Positions 1 through 36,281 of a DNA stretch of 64,000 nucleotides are shown here, piece after piece. The DNA comes from Akkermansia muciniphila (GTDB taxonomy: Bacteria > Verrucomicrobiota > Verrucomicrobiia > Verrucomicrobiales > DEV007), in the NCBI GenBank assembly GCA_945883495.1, contig CAMCXS010000015.1:1-64000 (forward strand), written 5' to 3'. The position numbers and the translations under genes were made by a program. Position 1 is the stretch's first letter, and every line of letters begins with the position of its first letter. Below the pieces are notes generated by a model. It had not been told where the DNA came from. It did not search any database and saw nothing but the letters and a program-made list of their open reading frames with translations.

Positions 1-456
1 GAAGTGCGCCGGATCGTGAGCGAGCTCTTCGAAGAAGAGCACCGGGAAGTAGCCACGGAATTGGCCGCCCTTCTCTGGACCTTCCTGCTCCAAGCATCGG
101 ACTTGCGACGCGAAGAAGTCCGGCGCATTGTGGAAGAAACCATCCCACCAGAGGAAAAAGAGCACTTCATGAGCACGGCGGAAATGCTGAAGGAAGAGGG
201 ACGCCAGGAAGGGCGCGCCGAGGGACGCCAGGAAGGACGTGCCGAAGGACGCCAGGAAGGACGTGCCGAAGGACGCCAGGAAGGACGCAAGGTTCTTTGC
301 GATTCCGTGATCGACTTGCTGGAAACCCGCTTTCAGACGGTGCCGCCCAGCTTACGAGAAGCCGTTCTTCGCGTGGATGATCTGTCCCAACTCCGCGGCC
401 TCGTACAGCTCGCGGCCGTTAGTGTCTCCCTGGACGCTTTCGAGGCAGGTCTCTGA
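1..456 (+). CDS. Rpn/PD-(D/E)XK transposase-like protein, C-terminal part
   Basis: The frame is open from the first base, so the 5' end lies outside the window. What is visible is a helical C-terminal region, then a Gln-Glu-Gly-Arg repeat at about residues 67-97, then a short helical tail. This layout is typical of the C-terminal half of the Rpn (recombination-promoting nuclease)/putative transposase family, whose catalytic PD-(D/E)XK domain is N-terminal and would lie upstream. The catalytic part cannot be checked here, so the assignment rests on tail architecture alone. Dispersed repeats follow directly. Confidence 0.6.
   Translation, partial: EVRRIVSELFEEEHREVATELAALLWTFLLQASDLRREEVRRIVEETIPPEEKEHFMSTAEMLKEEGRQEGRAEGRQEGRAEGRQEGRAEGRQEGRKVLCDSVIDLLETRFQTVPPSLREAVLRVDDLSQLRGLVQLAAVSVSLDAFEAGL
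199..292 (+). repeat. 24-bp in-frame tandem repeat, about 4 units
   Basis: Units of 24 bp starting GGACGCCAGGAAGG encode the octapeptide repeat GRQEGRAE. Units two and three are identical. The array ends as the frame enters the conserved tail. Being a multiple of three, copy-number change would alter linker length but not the frame. Confidence 0.85.
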
Positions 457-1368: not shown

Positions 1369-2331
1369 ATGCCTTTAGAAAGCACGCGAGGCATCTCGCG
1401 CTTAAAATATGAAAGCGTTTCCAATGGATGGCTCGCCCGCTACACGCGAGAGAAGGTGCTTTTTTCGAAAACCTTTTTCGATTCGGCGTATGGCTCTGCT
1501 GAGGCATCTTTCGATGCCGCCAAAGCATGGCATGATGAGGCACGGAGATTGCTTCCGCCTTTGAATCGCCGCGAATATGTCGAGATCAAAAAAGGGAACA
1601 ACACTTCGGGCATCACTGGAGTTCATAGAGCGACGAAGAAAGCAAAAGGACATCGCTACGACGTCTGGATCGCTTCATGGCGCACAGCCGAGGGTAAGCG
1701 AAAAAACAAAGCCTTTTACATCGGTCAACACGGGGAAGAGAAAGCAAAGGAGTTGGCTATCCAGCTTCGCAAAGAGATGGTAGCGCAGCTCCCAACGGAA
1801 TTAAGTTCGGACTATTGGAGCTACAGACCCCACGGCGACCGCCAGTCATTCGAGCGGGATATTTATGCATTCGAAGGCACTGAGATAATTCGAGTTCACC
1901 TTGCCAGAGAGCGAGATCGGAGATTACGCCAAAGTAAAATTGAAGAGTTTCTCGCCGAGCATGGCTGCTTGTTTTGTGAGCTGTGCAGTTTCAACTTCGA
2001 GGCGGCTTATGGGATTATCGGACGCGGACTGATTGAGGTTCACCATTTGACGCCCTTGGCGGAGTTGACCAGTGCCACCATTAATCGAACAAAGGATTTG
2101 ATGCTCGTCTGCGCTAACTGCCATCTGGTGCTTCACAATGGCGATTGCCACGAGAACCTCGAAACCATCAAGTTCATCTACGCAGCGAAACACCACCGCA
2201 GCGCCGATCCGAAGGTGAACAAACCGCTCGTGCCAACTGCCGGGGCTGCTCTGTCGTCCATGGCTTCCCTCGGTCTATCTCACGATCCCGTGTCGACGAT
2301 CACCTGCGCCCCAGCGGAGGGCACCGCTTAG
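1369..2331 (+). CDS. Tandem AP2-like domain HNH endonuclease
   Basis: A 320-residue protein. Residues about 8-62 and 80-137 are two AP2-like DNA-binding repeats; the second has the typical SGITGVH start, a tryptophan pair and a helix ending LAIQLRKEM. Residues about 200-260 form an HNH nuclease core: C203/C206, EVHH (H225, H226) and CANCH (C248, C251, H252), giving a zinc-bound beta-beta-alpha-metal fold. AP2 plus HNH is known in homing-type endonucleases, where AP2 supplies site specificity. The last 40 residues look like read-through into repeat DNA. It has no partner methylase. A stand-alone protein with the same two AP2 repeats is encoded at 32217-32693. Confidence 0.8.
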   Translation: MPLESTRGISRLKYESVSNGWLARYTREKVLFSKTFFDSAYGSAEASFDAAKAWHDEARRLLPPLNRREYVEIKKGNNTSGITGVHRATKKAKGHRYDVWIASWRTAEGKRKNKAFYIGQHGEEKAKELAIQLRKEMVAQLPTELSSDYWSYRPHGDRQSFERDIYAFEGTEIIRVHLARERDRRLRQSKIEEFLAEHGCLFCELCSFNFEAAYGIIGRGLIEVHHLTPLAELTSATINRTKDLMLVCANCHLVLHNGDCHENLETIKFIYAAKHHRSADPKVNKPLVPTAGAALSSMASLGLSHDPVSTITCAPAEGTA

Positions 2332-30755: not shown

Positions 30756-30834
30756 GGCGCCAACGCCATTTTCACTTGCTCGATTTCGAAAGCTGTGACA
30801 CACTCCCCGCCCCAGTCTTCCAGGGGAGGTGACC

Positions 30835-31143
30835 ATGGCATACGCAATTATCAAAGTCGGCGGCAAGCAATTCCGAGTCAGCGAAGGCGACTTGGTCGAT
30901 GTCGAGAAGCTCGACGCCCAAAAAGGTGATACCGTGAAATTCGAGGACGTTCTCCTCATTTCTCGTGACGGTGCCACCACCGTCGGATCTCCCAAAGTAG
31001 CGGGCGCAGCCGTGACTGCCGAAGTCATCGAGCAACGCCGCTTGCCCAAGGTTACGGCTTTCAAATTCAAGCGCCGCAAAGGCTTCCACAAAACCAAAGG
31101 TCATCGCCAGCCCGTGACCCGCGTCTCCATCAAGGGCATCTGA
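30835..31143 (+). CDS. rplU: 50S ribosomal protein L21
   Basis: A 102-residue protein with the standard L21 beginning MAYAIIKVGGKQFRVSEGD and the 23S rRNA-binding KFKRRKGFHKTKGHRQ segment near the C terminus. A strong GGGGAGGTG ribosome-binding site at 30823-30831 decides the ATG at 30835. It is paired with rpmA 41 bp downstream, the nearly universal order. Confidence 0.97.
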   Translation: MAYAIIKVGGKQFRVSEGDLVDVEKLDAQKGDTVKFEDVLLISRDGATTVGSPKVAGAAVTAEVIEQRRLPKVTAFKFKRRKGFHKTKGHRQPVTRVSIKGI

Positions 31144-31184: not shown

Positions 31185-31445
31185 ATGGCTCACAAGAAAG
31201 GTCAAGGTAGTGTCAAGAACGGTCGCGACTCCCGCAGCAAGCGCCTCGGCGTGAAGCGTTTCGGCGGTGAAGCCGTTCTCGCCGGTTCCATCATCATCCG
31301 CCAGTGCGGCACCAAGTGGCAGCCGGGCAAAAACGTCGGCTGTGGCCGGGATTACACCCTGTTCGCCCTCGTCGATGGCAACGTCCGTTTCGATCGCGAC
31401 GGCCGCCGGGTCAACATTGATCCGATCGCCGCTGGGGCGAACTAA
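31185..31445 (+). CDS. rpmA: 50S ribosomal protein L27
   Basis: An 86-residue protein starting [16 protein letters not shown]; the N-terminal tail reaches the peptidyl transferase centre. It begins directly with the mature-type sequence, so no Firmicute-style cleaved N-terminal extension is present. It follows rplU, with a rho-independent terminator 50 bp after the stop. Confidence 0.97.
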
Positions 31446-31545: not shown

Positions 31546-32007
31546 ATGTTCCACGTCGTCCTGGTCGAACCCGAGATTCCTCCCAATACGGGGAACATCG
31601 CCCGCCTTTGCCTGGCCACTGGCTCCGTGTTGCACCTCGTGGAACCGTTGGGGTTTTCCATCGACGACCGCTCGCTGAAGCGGGCCGGCCTCGACTATTG
31701 GGCGGATGTGGACGTGCGGGTGTGGCCCTCCCTCACCGGACTCTTTGAAGCAACCGGTGAGTCGAAGCGCTACTTTCTGACCACCAAAGCGACGAGACCT
31801 TACTGGGACCAGAGCTTTCAGCCAGGAGATTACCTGTTCTTTGGCAGGGAGACGCGAGGCTTGCCAGAGAGTCTCTTGCAGGCGCATCCGGACCAATGCC
31901 TCACGATCCCGATGGAGCGAGACTCTACGCGGAGTCTCAACTTGGCAACGGCGGTGGGAATTGTACTGTATGAAGCGATTCGGCAAACCAGAGTGAATGG
32001 TGTCTGA
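31546..32007 (+). CDS. trmL: tRNA (cytidine(34)-2'-O)-methyltransferase TrmL
   Basis: A 153-residue SPOUT methyltransferase that 2'-O-methylates the wobble base of tRNA-Leu isoacceptors using SAM. The start MFHVVLVEPEIPPNTGNIARLC is diagnostic. The knotted SAM site is shown by FFGRETRGLP and IPMERDSTRSLNLATAVGIVLYE. Length is that of the minimal TrmL family. It sits between the rpmA terminator and the promoter of the AP2 gene. Confidence 0.93.
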   Translation: MFHVVLVEPEIPPNTGNIARLCLATGSVLHLVEPLGFSIDDRSLKRAGLDYWADVDVRVWPSLTGLFEATGESKRYFLTTKATRPYWDQSFQPGDYLFFGRETRGLPESLLQAHPDQCLTIPMERDSTRSLNLATAVGIVLYEAIRQTRVNGV

Positions 32008-32131
32008 GTGAGGGACGTCCTAAGAGGTTGATCCCACTGCCTGGCATGGGTCCTGGAAGAGCTGGGCTAGGCTTTGGGGAGCGCAAAGATCCTAGAAAAT
32101 CTAAATAATTAACAGAAATTAAATATTCTAG

Positions 32132-32160
32132 TTGCAGTAGTCCTCGACTGCTTCTATAAT
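32132..32160 (+). promoter_or_regulatory. Canonical sigma-70 promoter for the tandem-AP2 gene
   Basis: -35 TTGCAG (32132-32137), 17-bp spacer, -10 TATAAT (32155-32160), preceded by about 45 bp of AT-rich sequence that could act as an UP element. Transcription would start near 32167, 50 bases before ATG 32217. It is the most consensus-like promoter I can read in the window. Confidence 0.75.
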
Positions 32161-32216
32161 TGCCATGCGTATCGCGCCCCACTAAACAAACCAACAAAGC
32201 ACAACAGGAGATGAGC

Positions 32217-32693
32217 ATGGTAGCACCACGAGCCAACTACGGGATCACCCGTATCGACCAACCCGAAAAGAAAAACCATGGGTATTATGTCCGGATTACT
32301 CACCGCGGCACAACCCATCAGAAGTACTTCCCGGATAAGTCCAGCGGAGGTAAGGCTAAGGCCCTCAAACTGGCCAAGGCCTATCGCGACGAGCTTCTCG
32401 CGCAAATGCCCAAGGCCAAGCAAGAGATGGCCGCCCGCAAAAAACGCAAAGCTCTTCAATCCGGCGTAACCGGCGTCACCCACGTGGTGAGCAAGGTCGG
32501 CGAAAACAAGGAGTATCAGTACTGGCAGGCGGCCTGGGCTGATGAAAACGGCAAGCGCCGCACCGCGAAGTTCTCGATCGGCCGCTACGGCAAGGAGAAG
32601 GCTCTCGAGATGGCGATCAAGGCCCGCAAGAAGGCGACTCGCGAAACCGGTAAGAATAAGAAGGCCGCCGCCGCTGCCGCCGCCGCCAACTGA
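32217..32693 (+). CDS. Stand-alone tandem AP2-like DNA-binding protein
   Basis: A basic 158-residue protein. ATG 32217 follows AGGAG (32206-32210) at a 6-base gap; in-frame starts further up overlap the promoter. It has two AP2-like repeats: about 7-64 (YGITRIDQ ... HGYYVRI ... KYFPD ... ALKLAKAYRDEL) and 81-143 (SGVTGVTHV ... YWQAAWADENGKRRTAKFSIGRYG ... ALEMAIKARKKA). A Lys-rich segment with a run of eight alanines closes it. The same repeat pair precedes the HNH nuclease at 1369-2331, but no nuclease is present here. The strong promoter and its own terminator suggest high constitutive expression; a nucleoid-type or regulatory DNA-binding role is inferred. Confidence 0.8.
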   Translation: MVAPRANYGITRIDQPEKKNHGYYVRITHRGTTHQKYFPDKSSGGKAKALKLAKAYRDELLAQMPKAKQEMAARKKRKALQSGVTGVTHVVSKVGENKEYQYWQAAWADENGKRRTAKFSIGRYGKEKALEMAIKARKKATRETGKNKKAAAAAAAAN

Positions 32694-32760
32694 ACAAACA
32701 TTTAACCCTCGCGTCACCCGGTCCACAGACCGGACAACGCTCTTGTGACTTACATGAAGG

Positions 32761-32800
32761 ACCGGCTTTCGCCTTATGGTGAAAGCCGGTTTCTTTTTTT
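32761..32800 (+). terminator. Strong rho-independent terminator of the AP2 gene
   Basis: ACCGGCTTTCGCC pairs with GGTGAAAGCCGGT around a TTAT loop, followed by TTCTTTTTTT. It isolates the AP2 gene from the ATP-grasp operon 40 bp downstream. Confidence 0.92.
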
Positions 32801-32839
32801 GATTTTGGCACGGTGCGTGCTTCGCTCCCGGGAACCCCG

Positions 32840-34276
32840 ATGCTGTTCCAAAATTACGAGAAGGGAGATTTCTTCGACGAAATGTTCGCCTCTGGCGACG
32901 GCGACGTTTTCCCCCACTACCAGCCCCTCTACCAGCGCTTCCAAAACTTGGAGCGCGAGCAGTTCCAAGAACGCCAACAGCGGATCGACGACACCTTCCT
33001 CAAGAACGGGATTACCTTCACCGTTTACGGAGATAAGGACGGAACCGAGCGCATTTTCCCCTTCGACTTGATTCCACGAGTCATTCCCGACAATGAATGG
33101 CGGGTCGTCCAGGATGGCCTCACCCAGCGGATCATCGCCCTCAACCTTTTCCTGCACGACATCTACCACGAGCAGCGCATCCTCAAGGACGGCGTGGTGC
33201 CGAGGGATATCGTGGAATCGGCGGCGCACTATCGTCCGGAAATGCTGGGCGTGAATGTCCCGCGCGACATCTACATCCACGTCTGCGGAACCGATTTGAT
33301 TCGCGATCATGATGGCAAGTATTTGGTGTTGGAGGACAACGGCCGCTGCCCGTCAGGAGTTTCCTATCTCTTGGAAAACCGGGAAGCGATGAAACGGGCC
33401 TTCCCCCGCCTCTACAGCGCCATGAACGTGCGTCCGGTGGATGCCTATCCGGAGCTCCTTCTCAAAACCGTGCAGCACCTTTCCCCTCGGCAATCGCAAA
33501 CTCCCGTCTGCGTCCTGCTCACGCCTGGGGTCTACAATAGCGCTTATTTTGAACACACCTTTCTGGCACGCCAGATGGGAATTCAAATCGTCGAAGGCCG
33601 CGACTTGGTGGCAATCGACGGTTATGTCTACATGCGAACCATCCGGGGCTTGGTGCAAGTCGACGTCATTTACCGCCGGATCGATGACGACTTTATCGAT
33701 CCGAAAGTCTTCCGTCCGGATTCAGTGCTCGGCGTGCCCGGACTCATCGATGCCTACCTGCGCGGAAACGTCGCGCTCGCCAACGCCGTGGGCACCGGAG
33801 TGGCGGACGACAAAGTGACATATTGCTACGTTCCAGAGATCATCCGGTATTATCTCGACCAGGACCCGATCTTGGATAACGTACGCACCTACCTGGGTTG
33901 GCGGCCGGACGACCAGAAATACATGCTGGAGAACCTGGAAAACCTCGTCATCAAAGCGGCCAACGAATCGGGCGGCTACGGGATGCTCATGGGGCCCTCC
34001 TCCACCGCGAAGGAACGCGCCGAATTTGCCGCCAAAATTAAGGCGAACCCGAGAAACTACATCGGCCAGCCGGTGATTTCCCTCTCCCGCCACCCCACCG
34101 TTTGCGGGGACACCATTGAAGGCCGTCACGTTGACCTGCGCCCGTTCGTGCTCTATGGCGAGGACGTGCAGATCATCCCTGGAGGTCTCACCCGCGTCGC
34201 ATTGCGCAAAGGTTCCCTGGTGGTCAATTCCTCTCAGGGTGGTGGCAGCAAGGACACCTGGGTTCTTTACCAATAA
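32840..34276 (+). CDS. Circularly permuted ATP-grasp protein
   Basis: A 478-residue protein of the CP_ATPgrasp family (DUF404/DUF407 type). Start taken at the ATG of [16 protein letters not shown], where family similarity begins. Conserved pieces are [27 protein letters not shown]-type nucleotide site, [25 protein letters not shown] and [13 protein letters not shown]. It heads a three-gene operon with alpha-E and transglutaminase-like genes. Comparative work has proposed that such operons make or process a peptide-like tag; no substrate is established. Confidence 0.88.
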
Positions 34277-34285
34277 TACGCATCC

Positions 34286-35296
34286 ATGCTTTCCCGCGTT
34301 GCTGAGAGCCTGTATTGGCTCAGTCGTTATATCGAACGGGCCGAAAACCTCGCTCGCTTGGTCGATGTCAATCGCCAGCACCTGCTGGATTCCCATCGAC
34401 AAGGCCAGTCCAACCCCACGGACGCTTGGCGGCCCGTGCTCCTGGCCACTTGCGCGGACACCGCCTACGATGCCATTCTCAAGGATTGCGATAGTCCGCC
34501 GGACGCCGGCCGTTTCATCACCTTGGAGAATCGCTATCCTGACTCCATTCGCCAATGCATCGCCACCGCGCGGGAGAATGCCCGCATGGTGCGCGACCAG
34601 ATTTCCGAGGAAATGTGGCTGGAGCTGAACGCGATTCACCTCCTTCTCCAGAGCCCAGAAGCGGAAGCGCTCTGGACTTCGGACGCTCAGGAATTCTACA
34701 ACCGGATCATTGATTTCTCCCTGCTGTTCCAAGGCTTGACCGACGCCACGATCGTTCATGACGAGGGGTGGCAGTTTATGCAACTTGGCAAGTTCCTGGA
34801 GCGCGCGGACAAAACCAGCCGGATTCTGGACATCCTGACTTTCTGGCACGAGCCTGATCGCTACCACTGCACCACCGTGCTCTCCAGTTGCTCCGCGTTC
34901 TCCGCCTTCCGCGCGGAATTCCGCGGTGAGGCCACGCTGCAAAACGTCGCCGCGTTCCTCCTTTTCTCGCAGGCGTTTCCACGGTCATTCCGCTCCTGCT
35001 TGCGCCACGTCGATCACGCTTTGCACGCCATTTCCGGGGTTCCTGCCGGCACGTTCTCGAACGAAGCGGAACGCCTCACAGGGAGCCTCTTGGCGCGGAT
35101 CAATTTTTCCGGCATTGATGAAGTGTTCGGGCACGGGCTCCACGCCTACATTGATGAATTGCAGCAGCATCTGAATGACATCGGCGAACGTCTCTACGAA
35201 ACATACGTATTGCTGCCATCCTCTTTGCGCAATGTAACCCGTTCGGACGGAGGCACGCAGCACATGTGGCAGTACCATCAGCAGCAACAGCAGTAG
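34286..35296 (+). CDS. Alpha-E domain-containing protein (DUF403)
   Basis: A 336-residue all-helical protein starting MLSRVAESLYWLSRYIERAEN, the family hallmark. Further conserved pieces are ARENARMVRDQISEEMW, FLERADKTSRILDI and FLLFSQAFPRSFRSCL. It starts nine bases after the ATP-grasp stop. The two families nearly always co-occur and may form a complex. The C terminus ends in a glutamine run (HQQQQQ). No enzymatic activity is known. Confidence 0.9.
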   Translation: MLSRVAESLYWLSRYIERAENLARLVDVNRQHLLDSHRQGQSNPTDAWRPVLLATCADTAYDAILKDCDSPPDAGRFITLENRYPDSIRQCIATARENARMVRDQISEEMWLELNAIHLLLQSPEAEALWTSDAQEFYNRIIDFSLLFQGLTDATIVHDEGWQFMQLGKFLERADKTSRILDILTFWHEPDRYHCTTVLSSCSAFSAFRAEFRGEATLQNVAAFLLFSQAFPRSFRSCLRHVDHALHAISGVPAGTFSNEAERLTGSLLARINFSGIDEVFGHGLHAYIDELQQHLNDIGERLYETYVLLPSSLRNVTRSDGGTQHMWQYHQQQQQ

Positions 35297-35336
35297 TAGC
35301 CGCAACACTCCACCGCCCCCCGAACCCCTTACGGGC

Positions 35337-36281
35337 ATGCGTCTCCGCGTTCATCATCGAACAGAATATCGATACTTTTCACCGGTCTGGGAGAGCCTCA
35401 ATGAGCTCCATCTCAAACCCTTGGAGACTCGTTGGCAAACCTGCGAAAGCGCCATCATCGCCGTCATTCCGGCCGTGCGCCTCACTAGCTACGAGGATCT
35501 CCATCAGAACACCGTTCATCACTTCGAGATCCCCGAGAAACACGATCGTTTGATCATCGACAGCCGCTGCACGGTCCGCACGATCTGCAAAGTCGACTTT
35601 GAAGCCCTTCCTTATGGCTTCCCGCATTCTGGACTGCGTGGACTCAAAGGCGACGAAGAGTGTTTCCCCTATCTCCAGGATAGCCGGTATGTCGAAATCA
35701 ATCCGGAACATTGGCGCCTCGCCCTCGATATCCAGGATTTCTCCACGGATGTCTTCCAAACCGCCTATGCAATCATGGAATACATCTTCCGCAATTTCGA
35801 ATATCGCTACGGTTCCACCTCAGTGACTACGCATGCCAACGAAGTGATCGCCCGCCGCTGCGGCGTCTGCCAAGACTTCGCGCACGCCATGGTTGCTCTG
35901 TGCCGTTGCTTGGGCATTCCCTGCCGCTATGTCAGTGGCTACTTCTTCGACGCCACCCGCAACCACTCCTTGCGCGGCTCCGAAGCTTCTCACGCCTGGA
36001 CCGAAGTATTTATCCCTGGCCACGGCTGGATCGGCCTCGATCCCACCAACAATAAGGTCATCGACGATACCTACATCGCCGTCGCGGTCGGCCGCGATTA
36101 CCGGGATGTCACTCCGGTAGCGGGAACCTACTTCGGCATCGGCTCCAGCATCCTGGAGGTCAAGGTCACCGTAGAACGGCTCGACCCGCCCGTCGCCACG
36201 CCGCAAAGCTCAAAAGCCACCGCCCCCTCCGCGGCCGCCGCAAAACCGGCGACCGGGGAGACAGCAGCGCTCAAAGCTTAG
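35337..36281 (+). CDS. Transglutaminase-like cysteine protease family protein
   Basis: A 314-residue protein. The N-terminal domain (MRLRVHHRTEYRYFSPV) is the usual bacterial transglutaminase N-terminal domain. The papain-like core has catalytic Cys in CGVCQDFAHAM, His in SHAWTEV and Asp in GLDPTNN. The last 40 residues are Ala/Pro-rich and unlikely to be structured. It closes the ATP-grasp/alpha-E operon; in such operons it may cleave or transfer the proposed peptide product. It overlaps the convergent bioD by 11 bases. Confidence 0.9.
   Translation: MRLRVHHRTEYRYFSPVWESLNELHLKPLETRWQTCESAIIAVIPAVRLTSYEDLHQNTVHHFEIPEKHDRLIIDSRCTVRTICKVDFEALPYGFPHSGLRGLKGDEECFPYLQDSRYVEINPEHWRLALDIQDFSTDVFQTAYAIMEYIFRNFEYRYGSTSVTTHANEVIARRCGVCQDFAHAMVALCRCLGIPCRYVSGYFFDATRNHSLRGSEASHAWTEVFIPGHGWIGLDPTNNKVIDDTYIAVAVGRDYRDVTPVAGTYFGIGSSILEVKVTVERLDPPVATPQSSKATAPSAAAAKPATGETAALKA

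Follow-up and report, generated by a model that had tools for sequence, protein, structure and literature searches.

The window, by which we mean the whole 64,000-nucleotide stretch of Akkermansia muciniphila DNA analyzed here, carries an open reading frame for a stand-alone protein with two tandem AP2-like repeats, and our analysis confirmed this observation (Table 1). The frame is open over 158 aa plus a stop codon and encodes a product of 17.6 kDa with a pI of 10.35 and a net charge of +24. The protein is small and strongly basic in the manner of nucleoid-associated and histone-H1-like proteins, and the basic character is general, extending to nearly all of its relatives. The assigned start agrees with the N-termini of orthologs, which follow the pattern M-x-x-P-R-x-x-YG, and with the AGGAG that precedes it by six bases. 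As the sequence-only reading had claimed, no nuclease or integrase domain was found in Pfam, PHROGs, or NCBIfam, and the latter two returned no significant match. A catalytic tyrosine-integrase domain is likewise absent; the full 158 aa are taken up by the two predicted AP2 folds plus a short tail. Matches from phmmer to alphaRep, HEAT-repeat, and peptidyl-tRNA hydrolase proteins were rejected as artefacts of helical Ala/Lys composition. Elsewhere in the window, an ORF at 4-456 (plus strand) contains tandem EGRQEGRA repeats and resembles the C-terminal end of a transposase-like protein of the Rpn type (PD-(D/E)XK).

Table 1. Features of the tandem AP2 locus and related positions in the window
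Feature	Position	Strand	Basis or remark
Paralog: same tandem AP2-like N-terminus plus C-terminal HNH nuclease domain	1369-2331	+	outside the AP2 unit
rplU	30829-31143		upstream of rpmA and trmL
rpmA	31185-31445		between rplU and trmL
trmL-like tRNA methyltransferase gene, conserved upstream neighbor	31546-32007	+	synteny
AT-rich upstream (UP-like) element	32097-32131	+	conserved in two sister species
Promoter TTGCAG - 17 nt - TATAAT	32132-32160	+	hexamers kept in two sister species
Shine-Dalgarno-like AGGAG	32206-32210	+	6 nt 5′ of ATG 32217; orthologs without it
Stand-alone tandem AP2-fold protein, CDS	32217-32693	+	open ORF, orthologs, charge
AP2-like repeat 1, aa 8-62 (predicted E10-13, E22-29, E32-39, H46-62)	32238-32402	+	structure predictions, fold search, alignment A3
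AP2 repeat 2, aa 83-140 (predicted E87-94, E98-108, E114-120, H126-157)	32463-32636	+	Pfam, structure
Short basic Ala-rich tail, aa 141-158	32637-32690	+	not conserved in sister species
Intrinsic terminator, 15-pair stem, 4-nt loop, T-run	32759-32792	+	terminator scan

Upstream of the gene, the −10 hexamer TATAAT (32155-32160) is perfect, while the −35 hexamer TTGCAG matches at 3/6 positions and the promoter is absent from the list of our consensus scanner. Both sister species keep the AT-rich element, the two hexamers, and most of the leader, and the spacer has changed. Because the hexamers and the AT-rich element are kept while the spacer changes, we consider the promoter to be real, its phylogenetic footprint being the signature of a working one. 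The sequence-only reading had called it strong; with its weak −35 it is not a textbook promoter. The AT-rich element that had been pointed out is retained in both sister species, and the proposed independent expression unit gains support from the gene's own footprinted promoter. As for the terminator claimed for the gene, the 15-pair hairpin is strong, yet the scan found 1 terminator versus 1.8 in shuffled sequences, a count that by itself carries no significance. In the neighboring genus g2, 19/26 ortholog loci have another block, CTTGTC...AAAAACGnTA, located 74-122 nt 5′ of the start; only 22 occurrences of this pattern exist in 178 kb on both strands, including those 19. A g2 dyad, CTTGTC...GACAAG, was considered as an auto-operator and dropped since its left arm, together with the −10-like TA, is all that is conserved across species.

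Conservation and gene neighborhood

Homologs (E ≤ 0.001) are present in 70/75 genomes of the window's family, including 41 of the 42 good genomes, and by our own count from the family homolog table a close ortholog (best E ≤ 3e-45) occurs in 56/75. Within the window's order, 135/190 genomes have a match, and across the phylum a profile search that includes single-repeat proteins gave 62/387. Outside the phylum, the order of Desulfurivibrio contains relatives in 88/146 genomes (about 60% of those sampled), mostly in one copy, and further relatives occur in Anaerolineae and on Rhizobiaceae plasmids. Akkermansiaceae also encode AP2-like proteins of 84-108 aa that stand alone and have one repeat (L155-L162), a family expanded to as many as seven places per genome in one genus, probably Akkermansia, with genomes of 2.2-3.3 Mb.

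The genes rplU-rpmA-trmL lie upstream of close orthologs in 26-27 of 30 loci. Presence and neighborhood among relatives had been proposed as a check, and the near-complete distribution in the family and the conserved rplU-rpmA-trmL-AP2 order speak for the gene. Many close orthologs are followed by a lolD-like gene, which in the window's own genus is replaced by a gene for a circularly permuted ATP-grasp protein. This gene, an alpha-E gene, and a transglutaminase-like gene stand in a row at 32813-36281 (plus strand), where other genera have lolD; clusters of this kind are known and poorly understood. In Desulfobulbales (L121-L153), the AP2 gene is divergent to a mazG/rpsF/DUF2232-like/rplI cluster in most loci, with mazG-like genes in 26/31, rpsF-like in 19/31, and rplI-like in 18/31, these three being named from their sequences and not by profile. 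An rplQ-like gene is found close to one single-repeat relative, and several other AP2 subfamilies have no ribosomal neighbor. Pairwise dN/dS of the AP2 gene was 0.023-0.057 versus 0.058-0.106 for trmL in the same genomes. These comparisons support a vertically inherited gene under strong purifying selection.

Predicted fold of the repeats and variation of the tails

With the C-terminal half alone as query, repeat 2 matched Pfam AP2 (PF00847) over aa 101-140 at 33.8 bits (E 4e-8), above the curated cut-off of 33.3 bits, whereas the whole protein scored 31.0 bits, under that cut-off. Repeat 1 of the window protein had no match to PF00847, and repeat 1 of relatives matched in 2/46 cases at E ≤ 0.1 (best 0.003). 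The profile search that the sequence-only reading had proposed thus bore out repeat 2 but not repeat 1. Aligning the profiles of the two repeats (hhalign) placed strand, strand, and helix in register at E 0.0014, with a probability of only 18%.

Structure prediction, the other proposed check, gave an AP2-like fold for each repeat. The model of the window protein built from a 42-sequence alignment (mean pLDDT 84) contains two beta-beta-beta-alpha units, and in AlphaFold models with pLDDT of 84 and 78.5 both repeats form a three-stranded antiparallel sheet packed on a helix. A pTM of 0.51 makes the mutual placement of the repeats unreliable. In VIA-align searches with the whole protein, the best matches were the Toxoplasma mitoribosomal AP2 proteins 9i05, 9g6k, and 9hqv (Z 9.0-9.9, about 21% identity), followed by the DNA-bound Plasmodium SIP2 AP2 tandem (6sy0, Z 6.6), DNA-bound WRINKLED1 (7wq5, Z 5.5 over 54 residues, 2.8 Å), and integrase arm-binding domains (Z 4.5-4.8). 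Since the two repeats are placed differently, the rmsd of whole-length matches is large, and the per-domain matches are the meaningful ones. When repeat 1 was folded alone, its top five matches were all AP2 domains (Z 6.3-8.2), the best being a T. gondii mitoribosomal AP2 protein (Z 8.2), after which Z dropped to 4.8. This implies that both repeats are AP2-like and that repeat 1 is beyond the reach of Pfam; its assignment is by predicted fold. The claim that two such repeats make up nearly the whole protein therefore holds at the level of the models, with a short tail as the remainder. Among 42 relatives (alignment A3), R12, D14, H21, G22, V25, R26, G31, F38, D40, A53, and R57 of repeat 1 are invariant, as are G83, G86, V87, W107, G125, A129, and A133 of repeat 2 across relatives. 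The arm-binding domains of tyrosine integrases (3jtz, 3ju0, 3rmp) are also DNA-binding units with a three-stranded sheet and a helix, but they are parts of recombinases, unlike the window protein, which has no catalytic domain.

Beyond repeat 2, the last 15 residues of the window protein are 53% Ala and 20% Lys/Arg. The two sister species end in KKATRGSAKSKKVAVAS/G, and the basic poly-Ala tail described from the sequence, although present in the window protein, is species-specific. An H1-like Lys/Ala tail is not found in the window protein itself; long tails are confined to relatives. There, Lys/Ala-rich tails almost without acidic residues occur in several separate lineages. For instance, the f3 orthologs consist of one AP2 repeat and a Lys/Ala tail of up to 53 aa, still adjoin lolD, and have the tail in the place of repeat 2. 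The Lys/Ala tail is 98-108 aa long in f4 (L052/L053) and 79 aa in Desulfurivibrio (L128), it is N-terminal in subfamily 3 (142 and 84 aa in L059/L060), and f6 (L051) has a Lys/Ala-rich tail as well. The tails of two relatives match Pfam HC2 (PF07382) with E 7e-9 and 9e-5; neither match reaches the curated cut-off, and both may reflect composition only. HC2 (HctB) is the chlamydial histone-H1-like nucleoprotein; it resembles these relatives in its Lys/Ala-rich basic sequence but has no AP2 fold, and the window protein itself has only its short Ala-rich tail.

In a tree of 74 rows and 145 columns, with many forks unresolved, f3 groups with the window's own clade (100/100), and the tail state changes at least 11 times. 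Since syntenic orthologs have a tail in the place of repeat 2, the function seems to tolerate the swap of a folded for a disordered basic module. A general binder would accommodate such an exchange more readily than a protein that reads two half-sites. In Akkermansiaceae (L091, L103, L109, L110, L120), a DksA/TraR-like zinc-finger protein encoded ∼1.5 kb upstream of the AP2 gene has a long Lys/Ala-rich, histone-H1-like N-terminal tail. Tails of this type are thus not specific to nucleoid proteins and not diagnostic alone.

Origin, ligand, and likely role

What is known of AP2 domains comes mainly from transcription factors of plants and apicomplexans and, on the bacterial side, from homing endonucleases to which they are appended. 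The genome of the window holds four homologs. The paralog with the HNH domain (Table 1) has a codon adaptation of 0.65, low against the window median of 0.77 and in line with a mobile gene. A second close homolog (54% identity; G000:C1:28987, L065:4422-5311, minus strand) appears frameshifted, with the N-terminal part FGITRIAQPEKRILGF and the rest in different frames, and is either a pseudogene or an assembly error. One further homolog stands alone and belongs to subfamily 3. Bacterial and phage HNH-AP2 homing endonucleases, among them this paralog and gp47.1 of phage G7C, share an AP2-like domain of the same family but carry the HNH nuclease, which the vertically inherited window protein lacks. 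The gene could accordingly be read as what is left of a homing endonuclease or mobile element after decay and loss of the HNH domain, given that the HNH paralog with the same tandem region lies in the same window and that the phage matches of the window protein are HNH endonucleases. This reading conflicts with the strong purifying selection, the conserved synteny, the footprinted promoters, and the near universality of the gene in the family, and in the tree the HNH fusions appear as a few long branches, with one viral match only. On conservation, synteny, and selection we rule it out as highly improbable. A phage gene was also rejected, the four phage matches being weak and all to HNH endonucleases, with one stand-alone tandem in a viral contig. 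That protein (L183:869-1315, 148 aa) is the only stand-alone tandem AP2 found by pattern among 2.9 million IMG/VR contigs. The stand-alone family may have arisen from an HNH protein in the distant past, or the reverse. The window protein is probably a general DNA- (or RNA-) binding protein and not a piece of a mobile nuclease, a view to which we are led by its composition of two AP2 folds only, its tight conservation, and its H1-tailed relatives in other phyla.

If the ligand were structured RNA, either rRNA or a ribosome-assembly intermediate, the protein would resemble the Toxoplasma mitochondrial AP2 proteins (9i05, 9g6k, 9hqv, 9fi8), which are small, have tandem AP2 folds, and bind rRNA rather than acting as transcription factors (PMC11652630). 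They are the top fold matches of the whole protein and of repeat 1 alone, and ribosomal neighbors occur in two phyla (rplU-rpmA in Verrucomicrobiales and the rpsF-/rplI-like cluster in Desulfobulbales), besides the rplQ-like gene near one single-repeat relative. These proteins belong, however, to a eukaryotic organelle and are proven binders of rRNA in its mitoribosome, whereas the bacterial protein is likened to them by fold and gene neighborhood, and fold similarity does not tell the ligand. The gene also has its own promoter, is transcribed divergently to the Desulfobulbales ribosomal cluster, and lacks ribosomal neighbors in several other subfamilies, and the absence of the family from most phyla means that it is not part of core ribosome assembly. 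Weighing the rRNA-binding closest structures and ribosomal neighbors against subfamilies located elsewhere, we regard RNA or ribosome binding as the main rival reading, unlikely but serious. A classical sequence-specific transcription factor, with the tandem repeats reading two half-sites like PfSIP2 or plant AP2 proteins, would be consistent with the AP2 fold, the two repeats, the match to PfSIP2 on two half-sites, and the particular polar residues that are invariant in repeat 1. PfSIP2, which shares the tandem repeats, and WRINKLED1 offer DNA-bound structures of the fold, but SIP2 and plant AP2/ERF proteins are eukaryotic sequence-specific factors with large extra regions, whereas the bacterial protein has hardly anything beyond its two repeats. 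H1-like tails that replace a whole repeat in syntenic orthologs are ill-suited to two half-sites, no effector or ligand domain is present, and no linked regulon was seen; we hold this role to be rather improbable.

The reading we favor, at roughly even confidence, is that this stand-alone, strongly basic, vertically inherited two-AP2-fold protein is an architectural, nucleoid-type DNA binder. Each predicted repeat would present a three-stranded sheet with invariant Arg/His residues (R12, H21, and R26 in repeat 1) and a helix packed behind, and by analogy with known AP2 domains these residues would lie on the DNA surface. Two tandem folds with a basic linker and tail could allow one small molecule to hold or bend DNA or to bridge two segments, and in several relatives a disordered histone-H1-like Lys/Ala tail would strengthen the same job or replace repeat 2. 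The occurrence of such tails in several separate lineages, and in place of repeat 2, favors the nucleoid-type reading. It was already put forward from the sequence; the H1-tailed relatives lend it weight, while the poly-Ala tail that formed part of the argument turned out to be species-specific. Against it, the genome also encodes two HU-family proteins, the protein's own tail is short, Ala-rich, and not of the H1 type, and the proteins that match it best in structure are AP2 proteins that bind rRNA. We rejected codon adaptation as a proxy for abundance: ribosomal genes (0.70-0.86) overlap the window median, the AP2 gene stands at 0.80, and a measure that fails to separate ribosomal genes from the rest is uninformative on abundance in this genome. 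In this reading the ligand would be DNA, bound with little sequence specificity by an abundant protein of architectural role; these four points are inferred.

To our knowledge, the nucleoid proteins of Verrucomicrobiota have been little studied. Our searches, which mostly covered literature outside subscription journals, found nothing linking AP2 domains with Akkermansia and, for Verrucomicrobia, the nucleoid, and bacterial AP2 proteins, no stand-alone bacterial AP2 protein. The main text of a Verrucomicrobium spinosum essential-gene paper (PMC12283558) does not mention AP2 domains. The fold and the domain are known, and as far as the literature searched goes, a conserved tandem-only bacterial AP2 family with H1-tailed relatives is undescribed. 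A stand-alone bacterial tandem AP2 family so deeply conserved and strongly selected would mean a housekeeping role for the fold in bacteria, and the eukaryotic AP2 tandems that bind DNA and rRNA would gain an ancestor-like counterpart for comparison. More tentatively, the family may represent a new class of bacterial chromatin protein on the AP2 fold, abundant and architectural, that is passed on vertically in Verrucomicrobiales and Desulfobulbales and has exchanged tandem AP2 repeats and H1-like tails for each other. The window protein could thus be a new chromatin protein for Verrucomicrobiota.
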